NCBI GenBank assembly: GCA_031316255.1 | Contig: JALDQW010000001.1 | Span: 3,319,485 to 3,383,484 of the forward strand | Direction of reading: 5' to 3' | DNA length: 64,000 bases | Origin: Nitrosomonas sp. | GTDB lineage: Bacteria > Pseudomonadota > Gammaproteobacteria > Burkholderiales > Nitrosomonadaceae | In this document: one piece after another, positions 7,232-48,852 of the stretch | Layout of the letters: each line of letters begins with the position of its first letter | How positions within the stretch are numbered: the stretch's first letter is position 1 | Position numbers and translations under genes: made by a program | Notes under the pieces: generated by a model | What the model was told of the DNA's origin: nothing | Database searches by the model: none | The model's input: only the letters and a program-made list of their open reading frames with translations

Positions 7232-8224
7232 CTACAAGCTCCGCAAATAATGACGGCTGGTTTGATCGTCGCGACGCGAGTTCGACACTGTTGCCTGCTT
7301 TCCTTGCGTTGACTTTGGTCCTTCGACAATCACATTCACCACACCTATTCTGACCTGTGGATAGGCATCTTTGTGATTCTCAACAACTGATGACTTGAGT
7401 GCATGCGATTCAATACGCGTCTCATTGTTCACCACAACCGTTGGATGCTTTGACGCATTGTGGTCACTCTGTTCAACCGCCTGTTTAATTACCGCCTCAT
7501 TCCGCGGTTTTAACGCGTCTTCCAAACCTGCGTTTCCGGGATTCAGTTCTGATCCGGAATCGAAATCAATCCCAATGCCTTGCGTACGTAAGTCAGGCTC
7601 GGTAAAAACAGGTTGATCTAATGCAACATGCTCCACGATGTTTTGTACCGGTTTGCGCACCGGTTCCAATAATGGATCACTATTCTGTAAATCGTCAATT
7701 GGTGGGCTATCCAGATCTTTTTCACTGGCAAAACAATCATCTGAAATCAACTGTTGTGCAGTTACCGGCATAGGCTGCGTACTATCGTTGCGTGCTTCTG
7801 TCCGGTAATCAAATGGCGCGCCACCCAAACCCAGCCTGCGTTCATGCTCATCGGTACGTTCGAATCCGCTAGCCGACTGTTCCGGTACTCGCGTCTGGTG
7901 CGCATGATGGACCGCCGACGCTGCCACGTCGCTTGCAGTCCGATTGACAACAGGCTGAATTTTTTTTACGCCGACCGCTCCTCCGGTCTCTGCAAACTCT
8001 GAAATTTGCGCCTGATTTTGCGGCTGAACGCTGTTTGATAGTGTCGTTTTTCCGGACATGATCCCGGATTCAATCGCAGCATTTCCTAACCCGGTAAAAT
8101 CCGCAGAATTATGCTGATGCGGATGTTCAGGTTCCATTCCGGCAAAAGACGAAACAGTCTCATGCGTAACAAAAGACCTGCCGTTTCGGCTGTCATTAAT
8201 AATGTTTTTAAAAAAGCCGCCCAT
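7232..8224 (-). CDS. Unknown 330-residue protein of the injection system operon
   Basis: I do not recognise a family. The protein starts MGGFFKNIINDSRNGRSF, is hydrophilic, rich in Asp, Glu, Asn and Gln, has no membrane segment and reads as largely disordered. It overlaps the gp26-like gene upstream by 17 bp and precedes the DUF4255 gene by 3 bp, so it is co-translated with structural genes. A low-complexity linker, a chaperone for assembly or a cargo-related factor are all possible; the sequence does not decide between them. Confidence 0.65.
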   Translation of the reverse strand: MGGFFKNIINDSRNGRSFVTHETVSSFAGMEPEHPHQHNSADFTGLGNAAIESGIMSGKTTLSNSVQPQNQAQISEFAETGGAVGVKKIQPVVNRTASDVAASAVHHAHQTRVPEQSASGFERTDEHERRLGLGGAPFDYRTEARNDSTQPMPVTAQQLISDDCFASEKDLDSPPIDDLQNSDPLLEPVRKPVQNIVEHVALDQPVFTEPDLRTQGIGIDFDSGSELNPGNAGLEDALKPRNEAVIKQAVEQSDHNASKHPTVVVNNETRIESHALKSSVVENHKDAYPQVRIGVVNVIVEGPKSTQGKQATVSNSRRDDQTSRHYLRSL

Positions 8225-9059
8225 TATGACCTTCCTGCTTAACGTGACTATGAGCGGCCATGCCGCGGCTACGATCTATCAGTTGCAAATATTTCTGTCG
8301 GCGTGCACGCGGCAGATCCAGTATATCCTGTTCACGCCAATGATAGTGCATGGCTATCGCATGCACTTCATTGAATAATGTGTCAGGCGATTTTTCAAAA
8401 CAGCTGTAGGGTGTAGCTGTCAAACGATTCTGCGCTTCACAGTGCGGGCAAACCGCCAGCACCTCGGTTGCAATTTCAGGCGACATCGCTTCTGACGTTG
8501 ATTCGATTTTCTCAATGTCTTCTGCTGTCAAGTTTTCCGGTTTTAATCCTGGCCTGCGCCCTTTTATTTTTACCAACCGCGCAATGAGTGTTCGCAATGC
8601 TTTCTGATGATCTGTTATGCCGGAAATAGCGCGCTGATCATTGCCTGTTGGTACGGAAACGGAGATCATTCCCAGACTCACTTCAATATCTCTGCTCGGA
8701 TAGCCTTCACCCGCAGGCTTGACCGGCAACTCGGATTGCCGAAAAGACACATCGAATTTTTCCGCACAGTGATGACACACAGCCGTCAGCCATACTGGTC
8801 GATCATCCATGTGCACAGCCAATTGACGCATCAGAAACTGACGGTCTCCAACACTCAAGCCGCTGATCAGTTCCTCGCTCACTTGCTGTCCCCCGATACT
8901 GGCCAGTGCGTTACACAATACCTGTGTCACGCGCTCAACATGATTCAATTCCGGGTACGTTTGCGCGTTTAGCATGAGTTCGAACCCGCCCGTGAACTCA
9001 CGAAACGTGAAATCGCGCCTGAGCGTAGTGTTAACCAGAATTCCACCGGGAAGTTGCAT
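8208..9059 (-). CDS. gp26-like baseplate protein with Cys4 zinc motif
   Basis: This 283-residue protein begins with MQLPGGILVNTTLRRDFTFRE, similar to T4 gp26/gp28-type baseplate proteins of contractile tails and eCIS. Two CxxC pairs, CHHC (about 110) and CPHC (about 210), are spaced to make one zinc site in the folded protein. A C-terminal helical part (FNEVHAIAMHYHWREQDILD) is also typical for phage proteins that act as tail-assembly factors. It lies 30 bp after the tube gene. The role in baseplate hub assembly is inferred from position and resemblance. Confidence 0.6.
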   Translation of the reverse strand: MQLPGGILVNTTLRRDFTFREFTGGFELMLNAQTYPELNHVERVTQVLCNALASIGGQQVSEELISGLSVGDRQFLMRQLAVHMDDRPVWLTAVCHHCAEKFDVSFRQSELPVKPAGEGYPSRDIEVSLGMISVSVPTGNDQRAISGITDHQKALRTLIARLVKIKGRRPGLKPENLTAEDIEKIESTSEAMSPEIATEVLAVCPHCEAQNRLTATPYSCFEKSPDTLFNEVHAIAMHYHWREQDILDLPRARRQKYLQLIDRSRGMAAHSHVKQEGHNGRLF

Positions 9060-9089
9060 CGTGCTGTGCCTTGAATTATCGAATCGACA

Positions 9090-9599
9090 TTACGATTCAG
9101 TGGGTTCAGTCACGCTGGCGTCACGTTCCCAACCATTATGCTGCAATGTCAGCGTCTGTATACCCACGGTATTCATGGTCCCGGCATCAAATTCCGGTAA
9201 TGCCTGAAACTCCGATACCCAAGCGCCGTAAACCCGGTAGGAAATCGCCAACGCCCCTTGCAGATTCAGTACATTCAAAACAATATCCTTACGGTAATTC
9301 ACCAGTGACATCGCCGCGTTGCCCTGAATATTGTTAACCAGATTCGCCCAGTTCTCGAAAATCGGATCATGGGTCAAACCCTGTTCAAGTGTGATCGGCT
9401 CATAACTTGTACCCCCCGGCATTACACGTTCATGCGCCGCATCGCCTGCTGAACGCCACTTGACCGCTTCTGTCGATTTCTTGAGCACACTCATTTTTCT
9501 GAGGCCGGCAACAGGCGCACCGTCAACAATTACCTGAAACATAAAAGTACGATAGGGATCGTAGCGGTGCGCATTGGCCGGAAACATTGGTGCAGCCAT
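9090..9599 (-). CDS. Inner tube protein (phage gp19 / Afp1 type)
   Basis: This 169-residue protein has the tube signature: YRTFMFQVIVDGAPVAGLRK near the start, then VKWRSAGDA, ITLEQGLTHDPIFENWAN, and a C-terminal GIQTLTLQHNGWERD. It polymerises as stacked hexamers to make the inner tube through which cargo is delivered. Only one tube gene is seen, whereas Afp and PVC carry two; the second may be missing or outside the window. It lies 36 bp after the sheath gene, with a purine-rich ribosome site (AGGAGG about 7 bp ahead). Confidence 0.88.
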   Translation of the reverse strand: MAAPMFPANAHRYDPYRTFMFQVIVDGAPVAGLRKMSVLKKSTEAVKWRSAGDAAHERVMPGGTSYEPITLEQGLTHDPIFENWANLVNNIQGNAAMSLVNYRKDIVLNVLNLQGALAISYRVYGAWVSEFQALPEFDAGTMNTVGIQTLTLQHNGWERDASVTEPTES

Positions 9600-9635
9600 A
9601 AAAAACCTCCTCTTCTCGCTTAAAATATTCGAATG

Positions 9636-11189
9636 TTATTGCTCGCCTACTTTCTGCTGAATACGTACAATGACAAATTCTGCCGGTTTCAACGGCGCAA
9701 AACCCACAATCACAATCACTTGTCCACGATCAATATCGCCCTGCGTCATCGTGTCGCCCAACCCGCAACGGACAAAATAGGCGTCCTTCGCTGTTGCCCC
9801 CTGAAACGCGCCTGCACGAAACAATCCATCCATAAACGAACCGATATTGGCGCGCAGCGAACCCCAAAGCGGGTGATCATTCGGCTCGAACACCGCCCAC
9901 TGAATCCCGTTGTAAATACTTTGTTCAATATAAATGGCGGTCCGGCGCACGGGAACATAACGCCATTCCGGATCTGCCCTTGTCGCCAGCGTTCTTGATC
10001 CCCAAAATACCGGTCCGAAGCCGGGGCGATTTCGAATGCAATTGACACCGGCCGGATTCAGTCCATCCTGTTCCAAATCCTCGACGTTATATTGCAGTCC
10101 ACTGACATTGATACGCGTTTCCACACCTGCAGGCGCTTTCCAGACGCCGCGTTTACTGTCTATTTTGGCCCACATCGCCGCTGCAATTGATGAAGGCGGA
10201 ATGTTTAAGGTCTTGCTTGCGGTTGGATTGGAATCGACATGATAAAGCGGGTTGCTCACCGCCACCCAGGGGTAATAAAGCACAGAATAGGTGGATGTAG
10301 GCAAGCTCAATGAAGAAACATCATTACTCGTTTCCAGTTCGGTATCGGCAGGCGGATCAACAATGACCACCCGGCTCATGGTCGCTTCACAATGGGTGAT
10401 GGTGTTGGTGATGAAATCATTACTGCTGCCATCGTCCGGCCATCGCTGTCCCGGCAGAACCATAATGGAAACATCGCGAAACTTGCGCAGCACGTTATTG
10501 TAAAAATTCAGATAATCGTCCGCAGTCGGCCCGGCCTCGGAGCCGCCGACCAGGGTACTGAAGCTCGTAAAATTGCCGTCTGCATCCTGTGAATTGGCTA
10601 CAGGCAGCGCTGTCACTCCTTCTTCAACAGTCACCTGGATCAAACTGGAACTGCCATTGACGACTTTTTCGACAAAATTGTCATCGGCTGGATCCATACT
10701 GAGTCCGCGAAACACTTCGGAAGATATTTCCACAAAACCACTACTATCCTCAATTCCAACATGCAAATCAAAATTCGAACCATCAACAGCGATTGCAACC
10801 CGCAGCGCTTCACCCCAATCACCCTCACTGGATGCGTTAACAGTCAGCACATCTACCGGTGTCGAATCGACTAACACAACCGATGCAGTATCCGGCGCCG
10901 GGTCACTATCGAGAACGCGGCAGATATAAGCCGCTTTGCCGCCATTCTGATAAAACGCACGCACCGCCAGCGCCATATGGTCATTCACATCCTGCACGCC
11001 TGAAGATTGCGTATAATCACCAAACTGGGAAACATATTCCTCCCACGTGCCAATTAATGTAGGTGTATTCGCCGGACCTCTAAATGGCGAACCAACAAAT
11101 GCGGCAGTCGATGTTGATACACCTTCTATCGCTCTGGAACCACTGGGTATCTCCTCGATGTAAACACCCGGATGTAAATAACTAGGCAT
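9636..11189 (-). CDS. Contractile sheath protein (phage tail sheath family)
   Basis: This 517-residue protein is a clear tail sheath: PGVYIEEIPSGSRAIEGVST at the N-terminus, AAFVGSPFRGPANTPTLI, VNCIRNRPGFGPVFWGSRTL and the C-terminal VGFAPLKPAEFVIVRIQQK. PAEFVxxRIQQ is the conserved strand that meshes with neighbouring subunits and the tube. It is the first gene of the operon, with a strong ribosome site (GGGAGAGA) ahead of the ATG at 11189. A single sheath gene is present, where Afp and PVC have three. The long upstream gap probably holds the operon promoter. Confidence 0.92.
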   Translation of the reverse strand: MPSYLHPGVYIEEIPSGSRAIEGVSTSTAAFVGSPFRGPANTPTLIGTWEEYVSQFGDYTQSSGVQDVNDHMALAVRAFYQNGGKAAYICRVLDSDPAPDTASVVLVDSTPVDVLTVNASSEGDWGEALRVAIAVDGSNFDLHVGIEDSSGFVEISSEVFRGLSMDPADDNFVEKVVNGSSSLIQVTVEEGVTALPVANSQDADGNFTSFSTLVGGSEAGPTADDYLNFYNNVLRKFRDVSIMVLPGQRWPDDGSSNDFITNTITHCEATMSRVVIVDPPADTELETSNDVSSLSLPTSTYSVLYYPWVAVSNPLYHVDSNPTASKTLNIPPSSIAAAMWAKIDSKRGVWKAPAGVETRINVSGLQYNVEDLEQDGLNPAGVNCIRNRPGFGPVFWGSRTLATRADPEWRYVPVRRTAIYIEQSIYNGIQWAVFEPNDHPLWGSLRANIGSFMDGLFRAGAFQGATAKDAYFVRCGLGDTMTQGDIDRGQVIVIVGFAPLKPAEFVIVRIQQKVGEQ

Positions 11190-11719
11190 TATTCTCTCCC
11201 ACAGTAAACGAAAATGATTTTGCTCGAAAATATCTTGAACGCTCTGTTTCGGCTATAAAGCCTGCGTTCATACTTTATAAGACGCAAAAAGCATGCCCGC
11301 TGCTTTATGATTTAAGTCACTGTTTTTATGCATCCAAAAAAACCGGAGTGAACCTGTTTCCGGGTTATTTATAACCCATAATATTTTTAAAATGCATTAA
11401 ATACAGCGTAACTATCTATTTATAAGTAACTTATATCGAATACCCAGACGGGTAAAATAACACCCGTTTGAACAGCTATTTTTCCGGAACGACTTCAAGA
11501 ATTCATCATTCCAAAAGAGTGGAGCGAGAATAAAAAAATCCTGACGCAGTATATGATTGATATGTAAGGAAAAAATTTTGAGAACAAGAAAGCATGGTAA
11601 CGGAGTATGAACTATTCGCGGCGTCCGCAATCGGAGCCGACCGGGAATCCACCGTCTATCGCAACCCGTTTTTTTCAGGATGCGATAAATATTATCGAAC
11701 TGAGAAATGCTGATATTGT
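11190..11719. other. Intergenic stretch upstream of the injection system operon
   Basis: No credible gene: the only open frame (72 codons on the minus strand) lacks codon structure and family resemblance. A 7-bp inverted repeat TATCGCA/TGCGATA (11657-11687) could be a weak terminator for the tauE gene that ends at 11720. The AT-rich part near 11350-11420 is the likely place of the sheath promoter, but I cannot name clear -35/-10 boxes. Confidence 0.4.
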
Positions 11720-12544
11720 TTAAACAAGCAATTTAAGAACCAAGCCTATCGCAACAAAAATCGCCATCCAGGCAAAACCCTGCTGCAGCCTGGGGCCGGA
11801 AAACCGTGCCGAAAGCAGAAAACCAATCATCATGCCTGCCAATGCACCCACAGCAAACGGCGCAGCAATCGACCAGTTCATGGTACCCAGAAAAACGGCG
11901 GAGGAAGCACCAACTGCTGAAACCAACGCAATAACTGCCAGCGATGTTGCCAATATCGACTGCATTTGCAGGTAGGTCACTTTCTTGAGCGCAGGCACAA
12001 CGACAAAGCCACCACCCACACCAAGTAAGCCGGACAGGAAACCGGCCAGCGCACCCGACATGGCCAACGCACGCGCACAGGGCCAGGTCCAGATCAAGCG
12101 GCCATTGGTATTTCCAACCATACACGGGATCTCGGGCGAAGGATGGTGGCGCATTACATCGGTCTGATTGTCATAATCTCCTTGCCTGCCTTTACGCAGC
12201 ATGCTGATCGCCACATAGGCCAGCACCAGCGCGAAGAGCAGGATTAACGGTTCATGGGGCAACTGCTGGGACGACCAAAGCCCAAGGGGAGCGGCGATCG
12301 AACCGGTTAGCGCAACGACACCGGCAGCCCGGTAGCGCACTTTTTTTTGCTTCAACCCGATCAAGGCGCCTACTGTTGCCGAGAGACACACTGCCAGCAA
12401 AGCAATTGGAACCGCTTCAGACATGTTCATGTGCAAGCCGAATATCAGCAAAGGTACAGCCAGAATAGCGCCACCCGCGCCTGTCAGTCCAAGCACGATG
12501 CCGGTAATCGATCCCAGCAGGCAACTCATTAATATCGGCTCCAT
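11720..12544 (-). CDS. Sulfite exporter TauE/SafE family permease
   Basis: This 274-residue membrane protein has about eight hydrophobic segments in two repeats; each repeat starts with a Gly-rich motif (GSITGIVLGLTGAGGAILAV and later GFLSGLLGVGGGFVVVPAL), the TauE/SafE signature. It is expected in the inner membrane, exporting sulfite or related oxyanions. It is the last gene of the arsR-sqr-tauE unit, 10 bp behind the quinone oxidoreductase. Persulfide dioxygenase makes sulfite, so exporting it completes the detoxification route. The exact substrate is inferred from context. Confidence 0.85.
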   Translation of the reverse strand: MEPILMSCLLGSITGIVLGLTGAGGAILAVPLLIFGLHMNMSEAVPIALLAVCLSATVGALIGLKQKKVRYRAAGVVALTGSIAAPLGLWSSQQLPHEPLILLFALVLAYVAISMLRKGRQGDYDNQTDVMRHHPSPEIPCMVGNTNGRLIWTWPCARALAMSGALAGFLSGLLGVGGGFVVVPALKKVTYLQMQSILATSLAVIALVSAVGASSAVFLGTMNWSIAAPFAVGALAGMMIGFLLSARFSGPRLQQGFAWMAIFVAIGLVLKLLV

Positions 12545-12554
12545 AATTCGTCAC

Positions 12555-14162
12555 TCAATGTTTTTTACGTGGATGCGCCAACCATTCATTTCCTTTCAGC
12601 ATACCATTCCAGTATAACCAGGGAAAAACCGTTGTTTTAAAGAACCAGTATAATTTTCTAGGCACAGCGGGCTTTAATGGAAATGTCGGCAGCAGTTTCC
12701 CGCCAAAACCGAATTCAGCCAAAACAACTTTGCCATTTTCAACCGTCAACGGGCAAGCACCGTATCCATCGTATACCACCGGCAATTCCTCATCTTCCTT
12801 GTCCGCCAGCAGGTTCTCGGCAACCACGACAATCTGTTTTCTGATGGCAGCGGCCGTTTTTGCATTCGGCGAGGAACAGGCATCGCCGAGTGCGAAAATA
12901 TTAGGATAGTCCGGGTGCTGCAATGTTTTCTCATTGACCTTGCAGAAACCGGCCGCATCCGCCAATGGACTGTTACGCAAAAAATCCGGCGCCATTTGCG
13001 GCGGTGTCACATGCAACATATCAAATTGCTTTTCTTCAAGACGCACACTGCCGTCATCGTCTTTGATTTCAAAATAAGCTGTTTTACTACTTCCGTCTAC
13101 CTTGACGAGATTTGAGTTGAAGTTGAGCCTGGCATGATAGTGCTCGACATACCGCATCAACGCGGGCACAAAATCGGCCACACCAAACAAAACTGCGCCT
13201 GCGGTGTCAAATTCAACCGAAATGTCATCCAGACTGCCGGTTTTCATCCAGTGATCGCATGCCAGATACATGGCTTTCTGGGGAGCGCCCGCACATTTGA
13301 TCGGCATTGGCGGCTGGGTAAACAACGCTTTTCCCTGCTTGAGTTCCTGTACCAGCGACCAGGTATACGGCGCCAGATCAAAACGATAATTGGAGGTAAC
13401 ACCATTTTTTCCCAGCGTTTCCTCCACGCCTTCTATTTTTTCCCATGCCAGCCGTATACCCGGACAGACAACAAGCTGGCGGTAACCTATCTTACGTCCG
13501 TCTTCCAGAAGAACAAGATTCTTGTCCGGATCAAATCCCGCTGCAGCCGCATGGATCCACTCTGCATTGTCAGGCATAACCTCCGACATCCTGCGAACCG
13601 TTTTGTTCGCGTCATACGCGCCGCCCCCAACTAATGTCCAGGCTGGCTGATAATAATGCTTATCATGAGGTTCGATAATGGCAATACGAAGCGATTGGCG
13701 GCGCTTGAGCAAGCTCGCCGTTATACCGATACCCGCCGAACCGCCGCCGACTACCACAACGTCAAACGCATTACCCCAGTTGCAGGCATCGACAGTTGCT
13801 TGATGCATTTTGGCAACTTCGGAATCGGACTTTGACATGGCATGCAATGCCGAAGCGCGTCTCCCGGAATTACAAAACGCAAGCACCGGCCCTGGCAGTT
13901 CAGCCGTTAATTTACGAAACGCATTACCCCGCTTTTCAGGGATGACACCCACCTGCACCGGCAAGTAGGCAAACGTAATGCCCAGCGCTTTGGCTTGAGT
14001 CTCCAGCTGTTCACTCGTCGGTTGACTCTCACCGCCTTCAAAATCAGGCCGGTTGCAGATAATCGACTTAAAACCTGATTCAGCGATTTCAGTCAAGTCA
14101 TCGATGCTGATTTGACCGGTTACCGACAATTTCTCATCAAGCTGGGTAAAATTGATGCTCAT
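12555..14162 (-). CDS. DUF442-sulfide:quinone oxidoreductase fusion
   Basis: This 535-residue two-domain protein starts with a DUF442 / beta-lactamase-hydrolase-like phosphatase-fold domain (about 1-110) with the Cx5R-type loop FCNSGRRASA. From about residue 126 it is an FAD-dependent oxidoreductase (FDVVVVGGGSAGIG dinucleotide motif) of the sulfide:quinone oxidoreductase type, with the conserved Cys in PIKCAGAPQKAMYL and the C-terminal NIFALGDACSSPNAKTAAAI. It should oxidise sulfide to persulfide and reduce quinone at the membrane. In Xylella-type blh genes DUF442 is fused to the persulfide dioxygenase; here it is fused to SQR. A good ribosome site (GGAGTG) precedes the ATG. Confidence 0.85.
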   Translation of the reverse strand: MSINFTQLDEKLSVTGQISIDDLTEIAESGFKSIICNRPDFEGGESQPTSEQLETQAKALGITFAYLPVQVGVIPEKRGNAFRKLTAELPGPVLAFCNSGRRASALHAMSKSDSEVAKMHQATVDACNWGNAFDVVVVGGGSAGIGITASLLKRRQSLRIAIIEPHDKHYYQPAWTLVGGGAYDANKTVRRMSEVMPDNAEWIHAAAAGFDPDKNLVLLEDGRKIGYRQLVVCPGIRLAWEKIEGVEETLGKNGVTSNYRFDLAPYTWSLVQELKQGKALFTQPPMPIKCAGAPQKAMYLACDHWMKTGSLDDISVEFDTAGAVLFGVADFVPALMRYVEHYHARLNFNSNLVKVDGSSKTAYFEIKDDDGSVRLEEKQFDMLHVTPPQMAPDFLRNSPLADAAGFCKVNEKTLQHPDYPNIFALGDACSSPNAKTAAAIRKQIVVVAENLLADKEDEELPVVYDGYGACPLTVENGKVVLAEFGFGGKLLPTFPLKPAVPRKLYWFFKTTVFPWLYWNGMLKGNEWLAHPRKKH

Positions 14163-43602: not shown

Positions 43603-44124
43603 ATGGGTTTCAAGATTCAATCGCTTAATGTTAATTTGCCGTTTGGTCTCGGTGGCGCGAATATTGTCGTGACCGAAGCGCAACAAAAAGTGGCCTGGTC
43701 ATTGTACGTTGAACTGGCTACCCGTGTTGCCGGTGTCAAGCTCGAACCGGGTATGGGCTCGGCGCGCGAAGCGCTCGACTCCTTGTATTCATTGTTTGAA
43801 ACAACACGCGCCGTACTGCGAGCAGAAGGTCCGGGCGCCGCCAACGGGCCGGAATCGGTTGGTCCGATTGCCATTAATATTCTCAACAACGGGTTGCGGC
43901 CTTTTTTGACTCAATGGCATACGGCATTGAGCGATTTTGAAGACCGACAAAAAGAAGAGCAACGCAAGGAATTCGGCGGCAAAACCATTATCATTATTGA
44001 TGAATCCCGCTGGCCGGAACGCGAGTCTTTTTATCAGGCGCTGGAAGAAAACCGCCAGAGCATGCTGGAATATATTGAAATATTGGCGCGCATCGCCGGT
44101 GTATATCATGAACAATCGCAATAA
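43603..44124 (+). CDS. Unknown helical protein coupled to the TIR-SLOG gene
   Basis: This 173-residue protein (MGFKIQSLNVNLPFGLGGAN) starts with a beta segment and continues mostly helical (EAQQKVAWSLYVELATRVAG, EALDSLYSLFETTRAVLRAE, PFLTQWHTALSDFEDRQKEE). I recognise no family, no signal or TM segment. AAGGAG lies 5 bp before the ATG. Its last 17 bases overlap the start of the TIR-SLOG gene, so the two are translated together. It is likely a sensor, chaperone or regulator of the TIR enzyme; that is inference. Confidence 0.7.
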   Translation: MGFKIQSLNVNLPFGLGGANIVVTEAQQKVAWSLYVELATRVAGVKLEPGMGSAREALDSLYSLFETTRAVLRAEGPGAANGPESVGPIAINILNNGLRPFLTQWHTALSDFEDRQKEEQRKEFGGKTIIIIDESRWPERESFYQALEENRQSMLEYIEILARIAGVYHEQSQ

Positions 44125-46258
44125 TTATCTGCCCACGCTAACGATCCGGGTGTTGTGGGTTAAAGCACCAGGGCAGGATTCAAGCAACACAACGGAAGCA
44201 AACCCTGACCCCATCGACACGCTTGCAGAATCCGTTTATTCAGCCTTTTGCCGCTCCATTGAACAACCGCTTGAACGCGGCATGGGCATTCCGGTTTTTT
44301 TTCATCGCACACCGCCCGAACCCGATATTCTCAATCAAAGTCGGCATACCATTTTGGTGGTTCTGGTGGATGACCGCATGGTCATCAGCCCGGAATGGAA
44401 CGAAGGACTGACCGCACTGGCGCAAGCCGTTCAAGCCAGCAATCAACAGCACCGGATTTACCCGGTATCGCTGACACCCAATGCGTTTAATTTCAACCCG
44501 GTCATTACCACAACCAACTTCATCCGTCTGCACCGGTATACTGAATCCAGACAGCCCGAACAACTTGCACAACTGACATTGACGCTGACACACGAACTCT
44601 GCCGCTTATTGCTGACAGGACCGGCAAATATTGAATCCATCAACAATCGCCTCAGTCCAACACCGGTCATGTTGTTTTTAAGCCATGCCAAAGCCGATGG
44701 CGAGGGACTTGCGGAAACACTGCGCGACCACATCGAGACCACCAGCGCGGTGCAGACCTTTTTCGACACCAACGACATTGCACCGGGCTTCGATTTTCGT
44801 TCCGAAATCGAAGACAATATCGAGCGCAGTGTACTGGTCGTCTTGCTGACTGATCACTATGCCTCACGCACCTGGTGCCGGCGTGAAGTGCTCTGGGCCA
44901 AAAGCAAGGGCTGTCCGTTGGTTGTTGTGCATGCTGTGCGCAACCGCGAAGAGCGCAGCTTTCCTTATCTCGGCAACACGCCGGTGATTCGCATCGCCGT
45001 GCAGGATTTTGACGCCAATCCTCAACAAAACAATTGGTGCGCACAAGCCGTCGCGCTGGCGCTCAATGAAATGTTGCGGTTCTGCTGGTTCCGCGCGCAT
45101 CTGAATGACCTCAAGAAAATCGGTTTGATTCCCAATCATTTGGAGCCTTGCCCATCCCCGCCGGAAATGCTGACCGTCATGGCAAAGCAAACGAACAATA
45201 AAACGGCAACGGATCTTCACCTGATTTATCCCGATCCACCGCTAGGCATGGAAGAGCGCCAATTGCTTACACAGGCCGCACCTAACGTCCATTTCACCAC
45301 ACCGACCAGTTGCGCAGGGTTATCCGGAAAAACTGAAAATGAAGCGCTATTGGAAGGCTTAAACATCGGTATTTCGATTTCAGATAGCCCCGATTTGGAA
45401 GCGCTGGGCATGAACAACAATCATTTGGATAACGCCATGATCGAAATCGCCCGCCACCTGTTGTCCCAAGGCGCGCATCTATCTTACGGCGGCGATCTGC
45501 GCCCCGGCGGTTTTACCGAGAAACTGCTGGAACTGGTCTGGACATATGACAGTCAACAGCAGAAACAACCGGTGATGCCGACACCCGAAGAAAAAGCCGA
45601 AACAGCCAGCCGCCGCCTGACCAACTATGTCGCCTGGCCGATTCACTTGAACTATTCCCCGGCCATTCTCGCGCAGTATTATTTGAAAAGCGTTTTCAAA
45701 TTCATCGACCCACCGGCAGATCTGAATCTGGGTACACAACAACAAAAAATCTTCACACCACCCGACACATCCGAACACCGCTACAGGTGGTACCGCAGCC
45801 TGACAGCCATGCGTGAACGCATGGCGGATGATATCAAAGCGAGAATCATACTCGGTGGCCAGATCCGGGGCTACGCTGGCGGGATACCCGGATTGCTCGA
45901 AGAAGTGCTGCTGACGATATGCCAGAAACAACCGGTTTATCTGCTCGGTGGTATGGGTGGTTGCGCGCGCGTGATTATCGATGCGATCGAAGGCCGTCAG
46001 CCCAATGAATTGACCGTTGACTATCAATCAGAAAGCAAAGGATACATGTCGTTCCTCAATTATGTACGCCATCAAGCCCGGACTGAAATCAACTACCCTG
46101 CCATGGTTGAAGAACTGGAACAGGCCGGTATTGCGGGTTTGAACAACGGCCTGACCGAGGAAGAAAACCGGATACTATTTACTACACCACATGTTCCGGT
46201 GATGGTGGCGTTGGTGTTGAAGGGGTTGGTGATATGTAAAAACCTTAAAAATACTTAA
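44108..46258 (+). CDS. TIR-SLOG protein (tandem TIR-like domains plus SLOG)
   Basis: I chose the ATG at 44108 (MNNRNNYLPTL), where it overlaps the preceding gene by 17 bp; the frame runs back to 43937 inside that gene. The 716-residue protein has an N-terminal TIR-like domain (about 5-150; ILVVLVDDRMVISPEWNEGL), a canonical TIR domain (about 185-302; VMLFLSHAKADGEGLAETLR, then YASRTWCRREVLWAKS with catalytic-type Glu about 260), a linker, and a C-terminal SLOG-like Rossmann domain (about 415-710; ISISDSPDL, LSYGGDLRPGGFTEK, LGGQIRGYAGGIPG, VYLLGGMGGCARVI). TIR domains cleave NAD+ or make nucleotide signals; SLOG binds such nucleotides. Having both in one chain suggests a self-contained defence or conflict effector related to Thoeris. 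Function is inference. Confidence 0.78.
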   Translation: MNNRNNYLPTLTIRVLWVKAPGQDSSNTTEANPDPIDTLAESVYSAFCRSIEQPLERGMGIPVFFHRTPPEPDILNQSRHTILVVLVDDRMVISPEWNEGLTALAQAVQASNQQHRIYPVSLTPNAFNFNPVITTTNFIRLHRYTESRQPEQLAQLTLTLTHELCRLLLTGPANIESINNRLSPTPVMLFLSHAKADGEGLAETLRDHIETTSAVQTFFDTNDIAPGFDFRSEIEDNIERSVLVVLLTDHYASRTWCRREVLWAKSKGCPLVVVHAVRNREERSFPYLGNTPVIRIAVQDFDANPQQNNWCAQAVALALNEMLRFCWFRAHLNDLKKIGLIPNHLEPCPSPPEMLTVMAKQTNNKTATDLHLIYPDPPLGMEERQLLTQAAPNVHFTTPTSCAGLSGKTENEALLEGLNIGISISDSPDLEALGMNNNHLDNAMIEIARHLLSQGAHLSYGGDLRPGGFTEKLLELVWTYDSQQQKQPVMPTPEEKAETASRRLTNYVAWPIHLNYSPAILAQYYLKSVFKFIDPPADLNLGTQQQKIFTPPDTSEHRYRWYRSLTAMRERMADDIKARIILGGQIRGYAGGIPGLLEEVLLTICQKQPVYLLGGMGGCARVIIDAIEGRQPNELTVDYQSESKGYMSFLNYVRHQARTEINYPAMVEELEQAGIAGLNNGLTEEENRILFTTPHVPVMVALVLKGLVICKNLKNT

Positions 46259-46650: not shown

Positions 46651-47367
46651 CTATGCGTTAAAAAATTTAACCACCCAGCGTGCAAATAGCTGATCATCAA
46701 GCGGTGTGGCTAGTGACGCTTTTCCCTGCTCGAGCCGTTCGGCCGGAATGATGTTGCGGCGCACGTCCATCAGCGTGGACGAATAATCTTTCTTGAATTC
46801 CGGATGCCCCTGGACGCTCAGGAAATGATCACCATGCGCGAGTAGGTAGTACGGACAGAAGGCGCTGCCCGCCAGAACATCGATGTTCACATTCTTTGGC
46901 AGTGTTAACACTTGATCCTGATGGCTCGCGATCAGATTGAGATTGGGTTTGACGGGTTCCATCCAGGACTTTGTATATCCGGTTTGGTGCACCTGATTCA
47001 CGGTGACGCCAACTCCCCAACCTTTGTCGGATTTTCTGACTTCACCACCAAGCGCCTGAATCATGATCTGGTGGCCGAAACAGATGCCGAAATATTTTTT
47101 CCTGGCCTGATCCAGTTCGCGGATAAAATCTTCCAGTCGGGCAATCCACGGCAAATTGTCGTAGACGCTATGACGGCTGCCAGTGGAGATATACGCGTCG
47201 CATTCATCCAAATGCTGCGGATATTCCAATGCCTGAACATCGTACAACCTGAATTGATAGTCCGGTGCAACGTTGGCGAACAGTGCCGTGATCATCTGCG
47301 GATAGTCACCGAATTCCGATTGCAGTTCTTCGCGCACATGGTCGCATTGCAAGATACCGATTTTCAT
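46651..47367 (-). CDS. Class I glutamine amidotransferase-like protein
   Basis: The start at 47367 (MKIGILQCDHV) leaves 238 residues; the open frame extends to 47406 but those codons lie inside the IS element. Motifs are KKYFGICFGHQIMIQALGGE (nucleophile Cys) and FLSVQGHPEFKKD (His-Glu), so the catalytic triad is complete. Related proteins hydrolyse gamma-glutamyl amides (compare PuuD) or serve as GMP-synthase-like amidotransferases. It was the last gene of the glutamine synthetase-aldehyde dehydrogenase-alcohol dehydrogenase operon until the IS landed 9 bp ahead of its start. Confidence 0.82.
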   Translation of the reverse strand: MKIGILQCDHVREELQSEFGDYPQMITALFANVAPDYQFRLYDVQALEYPQHLDECDAYISTGSRHSVYDNLPWIARLEDFIRELDQARKKYFGICFGHQIMIQALGGEVRKSDKGWGVGVTVNQVHQTGYTKSWMEPVKPNLNLIASHQDQVLTLPKNVNIDVLAGSAFCPYYLLAHGDHFLSVQGHPEFKKDYSSTLMDVRRNIIPAERLEQGKASLATPLDDQLFARWVVKFFNA

Positions 47368-47372
47368 AGTGT

Positions 47373-47376
47373 TTAG
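47373..47376. repeat. Target duplication TTAG, left copy
   Basis: TTAG directly precedes the left IS end and is repeated directly after the right end (48853-48856). It fits the YTAR target pattern of IS701 elements. Confidence 0.8.
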
Positions 47377-48852
47377 TTCTACTTTGTCAGATTCAAATGA
47401 TCCCAACAGCGTATCAAGTTGATATATAATAACATATTGTTTAATAACTATTAATCACGATCATGTCGTGAAAATACTAAACGGTCACTCCAATTTGCCC
47501 TTCAGGGGCTTCCAGAAGCGCTTAGCGCGCATTTATCGTCATTTTCATCATTTTTTGTATCCTCGACGCGTGATGTCACAGCAACGTTCTACGGTTATTT
47601 GCGCGGACTTTTCCAGTCAGAACGAGCGAATATGCTGCGAATGGGCGAAGTCAACGAAGTTGATCACCAGGCTATGCAGCATATGCTAACATCAAGGGCG
47701 ATTGACTGGAACGGGTTTGGCGAGCAGATTGCGAGTGAAACGGATGCGTTGTTGGGTGGTTCTGCTGCTGTTTTGATTATCGATGAAAGCGCTTTTGCGA
47801 AGAAAGGAGAATCATCAGCGGGTGTTTCCCGACAATGGAATGGCCGACTTGGCAAGGTAGACAATTGCCAGGTCGGAGTATTTGCCAGTTTGTGCCAAAA
47901 CAGCATGGCCAGTTTGATTGATGTGCGCCTGTATTTACCGGAACATTGGGTGAGCGATTCAAATCGTTGCAAGAAGGCGGCAATACCTGAGGCATGCCGG
48001 TATTATCACAGCAAATGCGAGATTGCACTATCGATGATCGAAACAGCCAAACAACGCGGAGTGCGTTTTGGTTATGTCGGCATTGATGGTGGTTATGGCA
48101 AGGATCCTGCTTTCTTGCGAGGTGTTGATAAGCTTGGTTGCGCATTTGTTGCTGATGTTCACTGTCGGCAGATGGTTTATCTTGAAGACCCGATGCCATG
48201 CATTCCTGCCTGGAATGGCCGTGGCAGGCAACCGAAACACCTGAAGGCACAATCTGAAGCGATACGTGTTGATCAATGGGTATCTGAGCAGCCGGATACA
48301 GTATGGCGGCGTATTAAACTGCGTGAAGGTGAGAAAGGTATACTGGAAGCGGAATATCTTCATGCGTTGGTATGGGTATGGGATGGTAGCGAGAAACAAG
48401 CGCATCGCTGGCACTTGCTGGCTAGGCGGGAAGCCGGCGCTAGCGAAATATCGCATTATTGCTTATCCAATGCGTCACTTGAAACACCGTTACAGGAACT
48501 GGCGCAAGTACAGACGCAGCGTTTCTTCATTGAACATTGCTTTCATGAAGCGAAAAGCGAATGCGGCATGGACGATTATCAAGTACGCCGGTGGGATGCA
48601 TGGCATCATCACATGGCGCTGGTCATGCTGGCAACGCTATTCTTAGTCAAGCAAAAGATGCTTGGGCGCAAGCAATGGCCGATGTTATCCTTCAATGACC
48701 TGGTGACCGCATTAGCGCACATGCTGCCGCAAAGACAACTTACTACCGAGGATCTGGCTGATATTATTCATAAGCGACACCGGCGACGGCTCAGCGCTAA
48801 AAAATCTTCTGCCAGACGAAAAGTCGCTTTTGAGTAATCTGACAAAGTAGAA
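47377..48852. mobile_element. IS701-family insertion sequence, 1476 bp
   Basis: The element is bounded by perfect 17-bp terminal inverted repeats: TTCTACTTTGTCAGATT at 47377-47393 and its inverse AATCTGACAAAGTAGAA at 48836-48852. A 4-bp target duplication TTAG flanks it (47373-47376 and 48853-48856). It carries one DDE transposase gene. It sits in what was a 14-bp gap between the alcohol dehydrogenase stop (48862) and the glutamine amidotransferase start (47367), and so breaks a four-gene operon. The intact ends and duplication point to a recent insertion. Confidence 0.9.
47599..48837 (+). CDS. IS701-family DDE transposase
   Basis: DDE residues are visible: LIIDESAFAKKGESSAGV (first Asp), FGYVGIDGGYGKD (second Asp) and FFIEHCFHEAKSECGMDDY (Glu), with the IS701-typical SRQWNGRLGKVDNCQVGVF. 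The only start in this frame is a TTG at 47599. Yet the frame is open back to 47455 and the extra codons read like the usual transposase N-terminus (ALQGLPEALSAHLSSFSSFF, then STRDVTATFYGYLRGLFQSE). An ATG at 47463 is one frame off and stops after two codons. So the gene either uses an unusual start or has a small 5' frameshift. The 3' end reaches the right terminal repeat. Confidence 0.8.
   Translation: MRGLFQSERANMLRMGEVNEVDHQAMQHMLTSRAIDWNGFGEQIASETDALLGGSAAVLIIDESAFAKKGESSAGVSRQWNGRLGKVDNCQVGVFASLCQNSMASLIDVRLYLPEHWVSDSNRCKKAAIPEACRYYHSKCEIALSMIETAKQRGVRFGYVGIDGGYGKDPAFLRGVDKLGCAFVADVHCRQMVYLEDPMPCIPAWNGRGRQPKHLKAQSEAIRVDQWVSEQPDTVWRRIKLREGEKGILEAEYLHALVWVWDGSEKQAHRWHLLARREAGASEISHYCLSNASLETPLQELAQVQTQRFFIEHCFHEAKSECGMDDYQVRRWDAWHHHMALVMLATLFLVKQKMLGRKQWPMLSFNDLVTALAHMLPQRQLTTEDLADIIHKRHRRRLSAKKSSARRKVAFE

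Follow-up and report, generated by a model that had tools for sequence, protein, structure and literature searches.

The gene pair described here encodes a 716-residue protein that carries a TIR domain and a C-terminal SLOG domain, together with a 173-residue helical protein (p173), and, judging from comparative sequence analysis, it probably works in anti-phage defense. The combination of TIR with SLOG is an already known immune pairing; the new part appears to be the shared helical p173 family, for which no name was found in the libraries and open-licence literature searched, although it may have been published under another one. We tentatively propose, with slightly less than even confidence, that this previously unnamed family is a general partner of bacterial TIR immunity, a four-helix module exchanged among ThsB, TIR-NTPase, TIR-WD40, and TIR-TIR-SLOG proteins and patatin-like effectors, and that, together with the TIR-SLOG protein, it forms a variant of Thoeris with a TIR in place of the SIR2 effector.

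The gene pair and the domains of the TIR-SLOG protein

Positions below refer to the window, that is, the whole stretch of 64,000 nucleotides of Nitrosomonas sp. DNA that was analyzed. The pair comprises the following features:

43603..44124, + strand: p173 gene, coding for the 173-aa helical partner (predicted beta-hairpin and four helices)
44108..44124, + strand: gene overlap of 17 bp, also 17 bp in L009
44108..46258, + strand: TIR-SLOG gene, coding for the 716-aa protein
44108..44656, + strand: domain at the N terminus (residues 1 to about 183), shared by relatives; resemblance to TIR unproven
44675..44929, + strand: TIR domain, residues 190-274 (Pfam TIR_2)
44885..44887, + strand: codon for Glu260 of the WCRRE motif, corresponding to the catalytic-type glutamate of TIR domains
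45350..46177, + strand: SLOG domain, residues 415-690 (Pfam LD_cluster2)

Both genes lie on the plus strand of a Nitrosomonas-like chromosome (genome G000), with p173 as the 5' member. The two overlapping reading frames are as an earlier note on this DNA had claimed, and the same pair with the same overlap recurs in L009, a Nitrosomonas MAG. Between the window and L009, amino acid identity is 93% for p173 and 83% for the TIR-SLOG protein, at dS values of 0.81 and 0.74, respectively, and dN/dS values of 0.043 and 0.129 from this one relative indicate purifying selection on both. Because the overlap and the pair recur in L009 with low dN/dS, both reading frames are real genes, and purifying selection rules out a chance open reading frame.

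The TIR_2 match scores 53.5 bits against a cut-off of 28 (E = 4e-14), and Glu260, which directly follows WCRR, is kept in all 19 of the 19 TIR-SLOG proteins aligned. These represent 19 of the 21 SLOG loci analyzed; Rhizobium bangladeshense, whose TIR region is broken by an insertion element, and G346, where no TIR gene was found adjoining the SLOG gene, were left out. The C-terminal SLOG domain proposed in the earlier note is strongly confirmed by the LD_cluster2 profile (PF18163), with 291.1 bits against a gathering cut-off of 25.3 (E = 1.2e-86). This Pfam family is presumably derived from the work of Burroughs et al. in 2015; neither PF18163, LD_cluster2, nor “SLOG cluster 2” was mentioned in the open-licence literature searched.

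Two TIR-like domains had been suggested for the protein, and whereas the second is clear, the first is unconfirmed. Residues 1 to 185 have no Pfam match at an E value of ≤1, comparison of the N-terminal domain with TIR profiles by hhalign gave a probability of 3% (E = 0.014), a Pfam scan of 13 members at an E value of ≤1 yielded no TIR match in this domain, and the AlphaFold model was unusable for this question (pLDDT 34). The domain is present in 17 of the 19 aligned proteins as taken, missing from G051 and, from its annotated start, from Methylorubrum. At the position equivalent to the TIR glutamate (Trp97+4 in the window protein), none of the 17 has Glu, all featuring A, V, I, L, or M instead, and the domain, if a TIR at all, is probably inactive. 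Neither a SIR2 nor a peptidase match was found in the 716-aa protein by Pfam at an E value of ≤1, and a search with the SLOG profile retrieved no solved SLOG structure by sequence. Likewise, no full-length match to a protein of any named system was found in PADLOC-DB 2023 or NCBIfam 2026; the partial matches, to PDC-S66, ThsB, and ThcB4 (42.7 of 220 bits), cover the TIR region only.

The p173 family and its TIR partners

That p173 belongs to no known family was borne out in the libraries searched. The window protein has no match in Pfam at an E value of ≤1 and none in PADLOC, while no Pfam match above the cut-off was found for eight stand-alone members (the window one included) and no NCBIfam match for five members. 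The predicted model, a beta-hairpin and four helices (pLDDT 77, pTM 0.71), has no assignable structural relatives. Near-invariant residues of the family include W32, E37, T40, R41, S60, F65, T68, R69, R99, P100, W105, and H106. Relatives occur in 11 of 61 related genomes, in 4 of 369 genomes of a class sample and 4 of 398 of a phylum sample (G000 counted each time), in plasmid records (9, 11, and 11 by three queries), and on three viral contigs.

Of 31 p173 copies, 24 have a TIR gene no more than 2 kb away, and these are spread over proteobacteria, a cyanobacterium, an actinobacterium, a Bacteroidota plasmid, and viral contigs. The 31 comprise 28 copies scored automatically, the window, and two Streptomyces copies, leaving out S. 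longwoodensis H15 and H16 (which are like H14), a weak Priestia match, and a decayed copy in G025. The TIR is on the same strand at 21 of these 24; the sound TIR match is on the opposite strand in G015, where the neighbor is a short TIR fragment, in G019, and in S. chiapasense. The TIR label of the S. cynarae partner comes from NCBI annotation only, the 25 Pfam rows listed all being beta-propeller models, and in S. longwoodensis an IS5 gene separates p173 from the TIR gene. Seven copies lack a TIR neighbor at this distance: Calothrix copy 1, Ruegeria, G036, G030, G448, G587, and G346, the last at a contig end.

The TIR partners vary in architecture. TIR-TIR-SLOG partners are found in the window, L009, G474, and Rhizobium beringeri, as well as in Aureispira with ThsB in between. 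ThsB-type TIRs were identified by Pfam in G201, G102, G050, the viral contigs L041 and L078, Vibrio, and Mesorhizobium, and by our own profile in S. chiapasense. TIRs with NTPase-like or TPR-like regions, recognized by eye or below the cut-off, are the partners in Photobacterium and in Nitrosomonas G021 and G032, and further partners include TIR-WD40 and other TIR proteins. The p173 and ThsB genes overlap as called by 4 bp in G201, 26 bp in G050, and 4 bp in viral L078. On L044 (8815-10100, minus strand), a QueC-like gene overlaps a ThsB_TIR gene, which in turn overlaps p173.

The association with TIR exceeds expectation. A TIR domain was observed within 2 kb of the p173 match in 10 of 16 genomes, compared with 0.17 expected from TIR counts; the same test gave 9 of 15 against 0.15 without G000 and 4 of 7 against 0.064 outside the genus. 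Members of the genus are not independent of each other in these counts, and the copy in G007 contains a stop. Besides G000, one genome of the 398-genome sample holds both SLOG cluster 2 and p173 (G474, where they are adjacent; P = 0.023, in a sample with some genomes of one genus), and G346 of the class sample carries the two on separate contigs. When 29 p173 sequences were placed in a tree, members linked to TIR-SLOG were scattered over several places, and the TIR-SLOG-linked G474 copy was sister to the ThsB-linked copy of G050 (support 99/97), which points to partner exchange; in this tree 11 of 26 forks are open, and a program warning applies to the long Aureispira branch, which may join falsely. 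The pair or its parts recur together in other genomes, and p173 is a conserved partner as had been supposed; it is not a dedicated one, since the family is common to many TIR proteins and most SLOG loci have no firm copy within 2 kb (see below).

Three rhizobia, Mesorhizobium, R. beringeri, and S. chiapasense, have p173 as the N terminus of a patatin-like protein, a label taken from NCBI for the first, from a Pfam match just above the cut-off for the second, and from inspection by eye for the third. The fusions are plasmid-borne, with ThsB or TIR-SLOG genes nearby (L070 3910-6486, minus strand; L071 9044-11716, minus strand; L072 6977-9601, plus strand). Together with the overlapping p173 and ThsB genes and with the hydrophobic N-terminal segments seen by eye in the Streptomyces, L078, and Aureispira members, the three rhizobial fusions would fit a role of p173 as an effector or effector adaptor, in which the TIR makes a signal, p173 does the damage, and SLOG limits or tunes the signal. 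However, the window p173 has neither a fused enzyme nor a hydrophobic segment, and p173 also pairs with TIRs that have NTPase-like (by eye), TPR, or WD40 regions and could perhaps do without a further effector; we regard such a role as a real alternative, though an unlikely one. The reading we favor is that p173 regulates the TIR layer, since it is the sole constant among otherwise different TIR proteins.

SLOG loci and the surroundings of the pair

The TIR-SLOG protein has matches in 6 of 61 related genomes, which span most of its length in G000, G041, and G025 and part of it in G014, G018, and G051; those in G014 and G018 are short pieces of close copies on small contigs. Its SLOG family is patchy (PF18163 in 4 of 398 phylum-sample genomes, G000 included), and the module is found in 11 plasmid records and on one viral contig. 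Of the 21 SLOG loci, 8 have TIR and SLOG fused in one protein, and 11 encode them in two genes that abut or overlap. At 11 of the 21, a ThsB-type TIR is found within 3 kb, according to a profile built partly from these same loci, and PF08937 directly beside SLOG is confirmed by Pfam at L019, L020, L021, L022, and L085. In the window protein, SLOG and one intact TIR do share a chain, but a producer and sensor joined in this way are only one option, as the ThsB-type TIR near 11 of the 21 loci could be the producer.

A firm p173 is found within 2 kb at five SLOG loci (the window, L009, Aureispira, G474, and R. beringeri), the window being counted from the ORF list, as automatic ORF choice had hidden its p173. 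In G474, p173 is the last gene, 3 bp from the SLOG gene and beside TIR-TIR and SLOG, and its membership is supported by a profile E value of 2e-16 before inclusion, a BLASTP E value of 2e-14, and an hhalign probability of 98%; the Aureispira copy, also beside TIR-TIR and SLOG, has an E value of 5e-15 and again 98% by hhalign. In R. beringeri the p173-patatin fusion is 54 bp from TIR-TIR and SLOG, and in Mesorhizobium such a fusion is 7 kb from SLOG. At the stated distances, 15 of the 21 loci have a firm p173 or a ThsB-type TIR and 6 have neither, two of these six ending within 0.5 kb.

Other genes accompany some of these loci. The TIR-SLOG gene of G041 shares 4 bp, as called, with an HsdM gene, and downstream are genes for MazG_C, ThsB (own profile), HMUDK_hel, HsdS, and Schlafen. 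Viral contig L085, which carries ThsB, TIR-TIR, and SLOG genes, is P2-like judging by its genes for phage tail S, CII, and integrase. Nucleotide-modification genes recur beside ThsB-type TIR and TIR-TIR/SLOG genes at L057 (11852-14675), L070 (3061-14390), L072 (954-6701), L043 (7881-8979), L074, and L077; by Pfam they include MazG_C, HMUDK_hel, and Nmad2, and by record annotation uracil-DNA glycosylase, thymidylate synthase, nucleotide kinase, and NTP pyrophosphohydrolase, with Nmad2-like proteins seen by eye in L070 and L072. Perhaps this reflects a theme of base-modification sensing.

Relatives also show decay. G025 keeps, 42 bp from a glutamine amidotransferase gene, a p173 copy of 68% identity with three stops, and no TIR-SLOG was found in the stretch around it; by eye, this amidotransferase resembles that at window positions 46651-47406, and an Fe-ADH-like gene lies beyond it as in the window. 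Decay and turnover at this site suit a conflict gene. Such a remnant without its neighbor, along with the position of p173 as the upstream overlapping gene in the window, would also be compatible with a toxin-antitoxin-like arrangement, in which p173, translated first, silences the TIR-SLOG NADase until it is lost or displaced on infection. Given that 16 of the 21 SLOG loci have no firm p173 within 2 kb, that gene order varies, as in G474, and that p173 is the better conserved of the two proteins, we consider this quite improbable.

A defense-island context, which the earlier note had proposed to look for, was not found in the window: none of the ten neighbors scanned, which include a TonB receptor, a GGDEF-EAL protein, an eCIS_core protein, a GATase, a transposase, and an Fe-ADH, is another defense gene. 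Nor does a ThsB-type TIR adjoin the pair; the single PF08937 match in the genome at an E value of ≤1e-4 is at C1:3434400, about 69 kb away. TIR_2 has 13 matches in the 3.7-Mb genome, the 716-aa protein included. Adjoining the pair in divergent orientation is a 1092-aa protein with eCIS_core (PF13699; 40070-43348, minus strand), a possible contractile-injection-system cargo or relative thereof. A short way downstream, a DDE transposase gene (PF13546; 47599-48837, plus strand) separates the amidotransferase gene from the Fe-ADH gene. The L009 pair has beside it an 1821-aa protein (7862-13327, minus strand) that by eye resembles TIR plus NTPase plus long repeats.

As the scanned neighbors are metabolic, signaling, and transport genes, and as SLOG families include nucleotide-processing enzymes according to the accessible passages of PMC9503650, one might read the pair as a module of nucleotide metabolism or stress signaling with no role in defense. 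The patchy spread, the carriage on plasmids and a viral contig, the company of ThsB and, in G041, of type I restriction genes, and the decay or fragments in relatives all argue against this reading, which we hold to be very improbable. That p173 and TIR genes are adjacent merely through clustering of defense genes in islands, as the many TIR genes at the Aureispira and Mesorhizobium loci might suggest, is more improbable still, considering the same-strand overlapping or near-abutting pairs in several lineages, the 9 of 15 genomes against 0.15 expected, and a window pair with no other defense gene among its scanned neighbors.

Relation to known systems and proposed mechanism

In Thoeris, ThsA is a SIR2-SLOG protein activated by cADPR isomers, as stated in the accessible part of PMC11204291. 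The present pair resembles Thoeris in being NAD-centered, in involving TIR proteins, in carrying a SLOG domain at the C terminus of an effector-like chain (here LD_cluster2), and in the ThsB-type TIRs near its SLOG relatives. It differs in that the 716-aa protein has a TIR in place of SIR2, in that its SLOG, of Pfam cluster 2, finds no solved SLOG by sequence, and in that the window pair has an extra p173 gene and no adjoining ThsB.

While the lack of a full-length match in PADLOC or NCBIfam upholds the view that the pair fits no named system, TIR-SLOG immunity as such had already been described: the available excerpts of PMC7824862 credit “SLOG-TIR” immune systems to Burroughs et al. (2015), and those of PMC9503650 name “TIR-SLOG-based antiviral systems.” The nucleotide-centric SLOG-TIR systems of that 2015 study, as conveyed by these citing papers, share the same predicted immune pairing. 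The two-gene units of EACC1 and EACC2 likewise combine a constant component with variable effectors, EACC1 being a single-TM domain paired mainly with caspases (PMC7159879, PMC8195603), with rarer architectures lacking a caspase also mentioned (PMC7159879); in contrast, p173 is helical and TIR-paired, and it is absent from the EACC descriptions in the available passages of these papers. An identity of p173 with EACC1 was dropped, since the window pair has no caspase link. Finally, the accessible text of PMC9122126 reports that P2-like hotspots carry defense systems, among them the TIR-NLR of P4 satellites and the TIR locus of P2-like phage AC1. Both were tested against phages and resemble our system in their TIR proteins and kind of hotspot; the main text of that paper does not use the word SLOG.

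We see about an even chance that the pair acts as a Thoeris-like anti-phage (or anti-plasmid) abortive-infection module, in which SLOG gates the TIR NADase and p173 serves as an exchangeable regulator. The TIR would cleave NAD+ through Glu260, and SLOG would bind an ADP-ribose-type nucleotide made by its own TIR or by another TIR of the cell; the genome has 13 TIR_2 matches. By analogy with the action of SLOG on SIR2 in ThsA, SLOG may then switch the TIR between idle and active states; as regards ligand binding, this analogy is weak, because the SLOG profile retrieves no solved SLOG by sequence. In turn, p173 would bind the TIR layer and set when the TIR assembles or fires, and infection would tip the complex into NAD+ depletion, so that the infected cell stops. 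An exchange of p173 among ThsB, TIR-NTPase, TIR-WD40, TIR-TIR/SLOG, and patatin-like proteins would be understandable because p173 would act on the TIR layer.

TIR enzymes are switched on by very different sensors. If our proposal is true, it would define a class of TIR systems that share a constant helical component, and one small family found beside many TIR architectures would offer a common handle on how bacterial TIRs are silenced and triggered, with p173 as a search key for unnamed defense systems. A SLOG-gated TIR would extend the logic of Thoeris to a new effector and could reveal a ligand of SLOG cluster 2.
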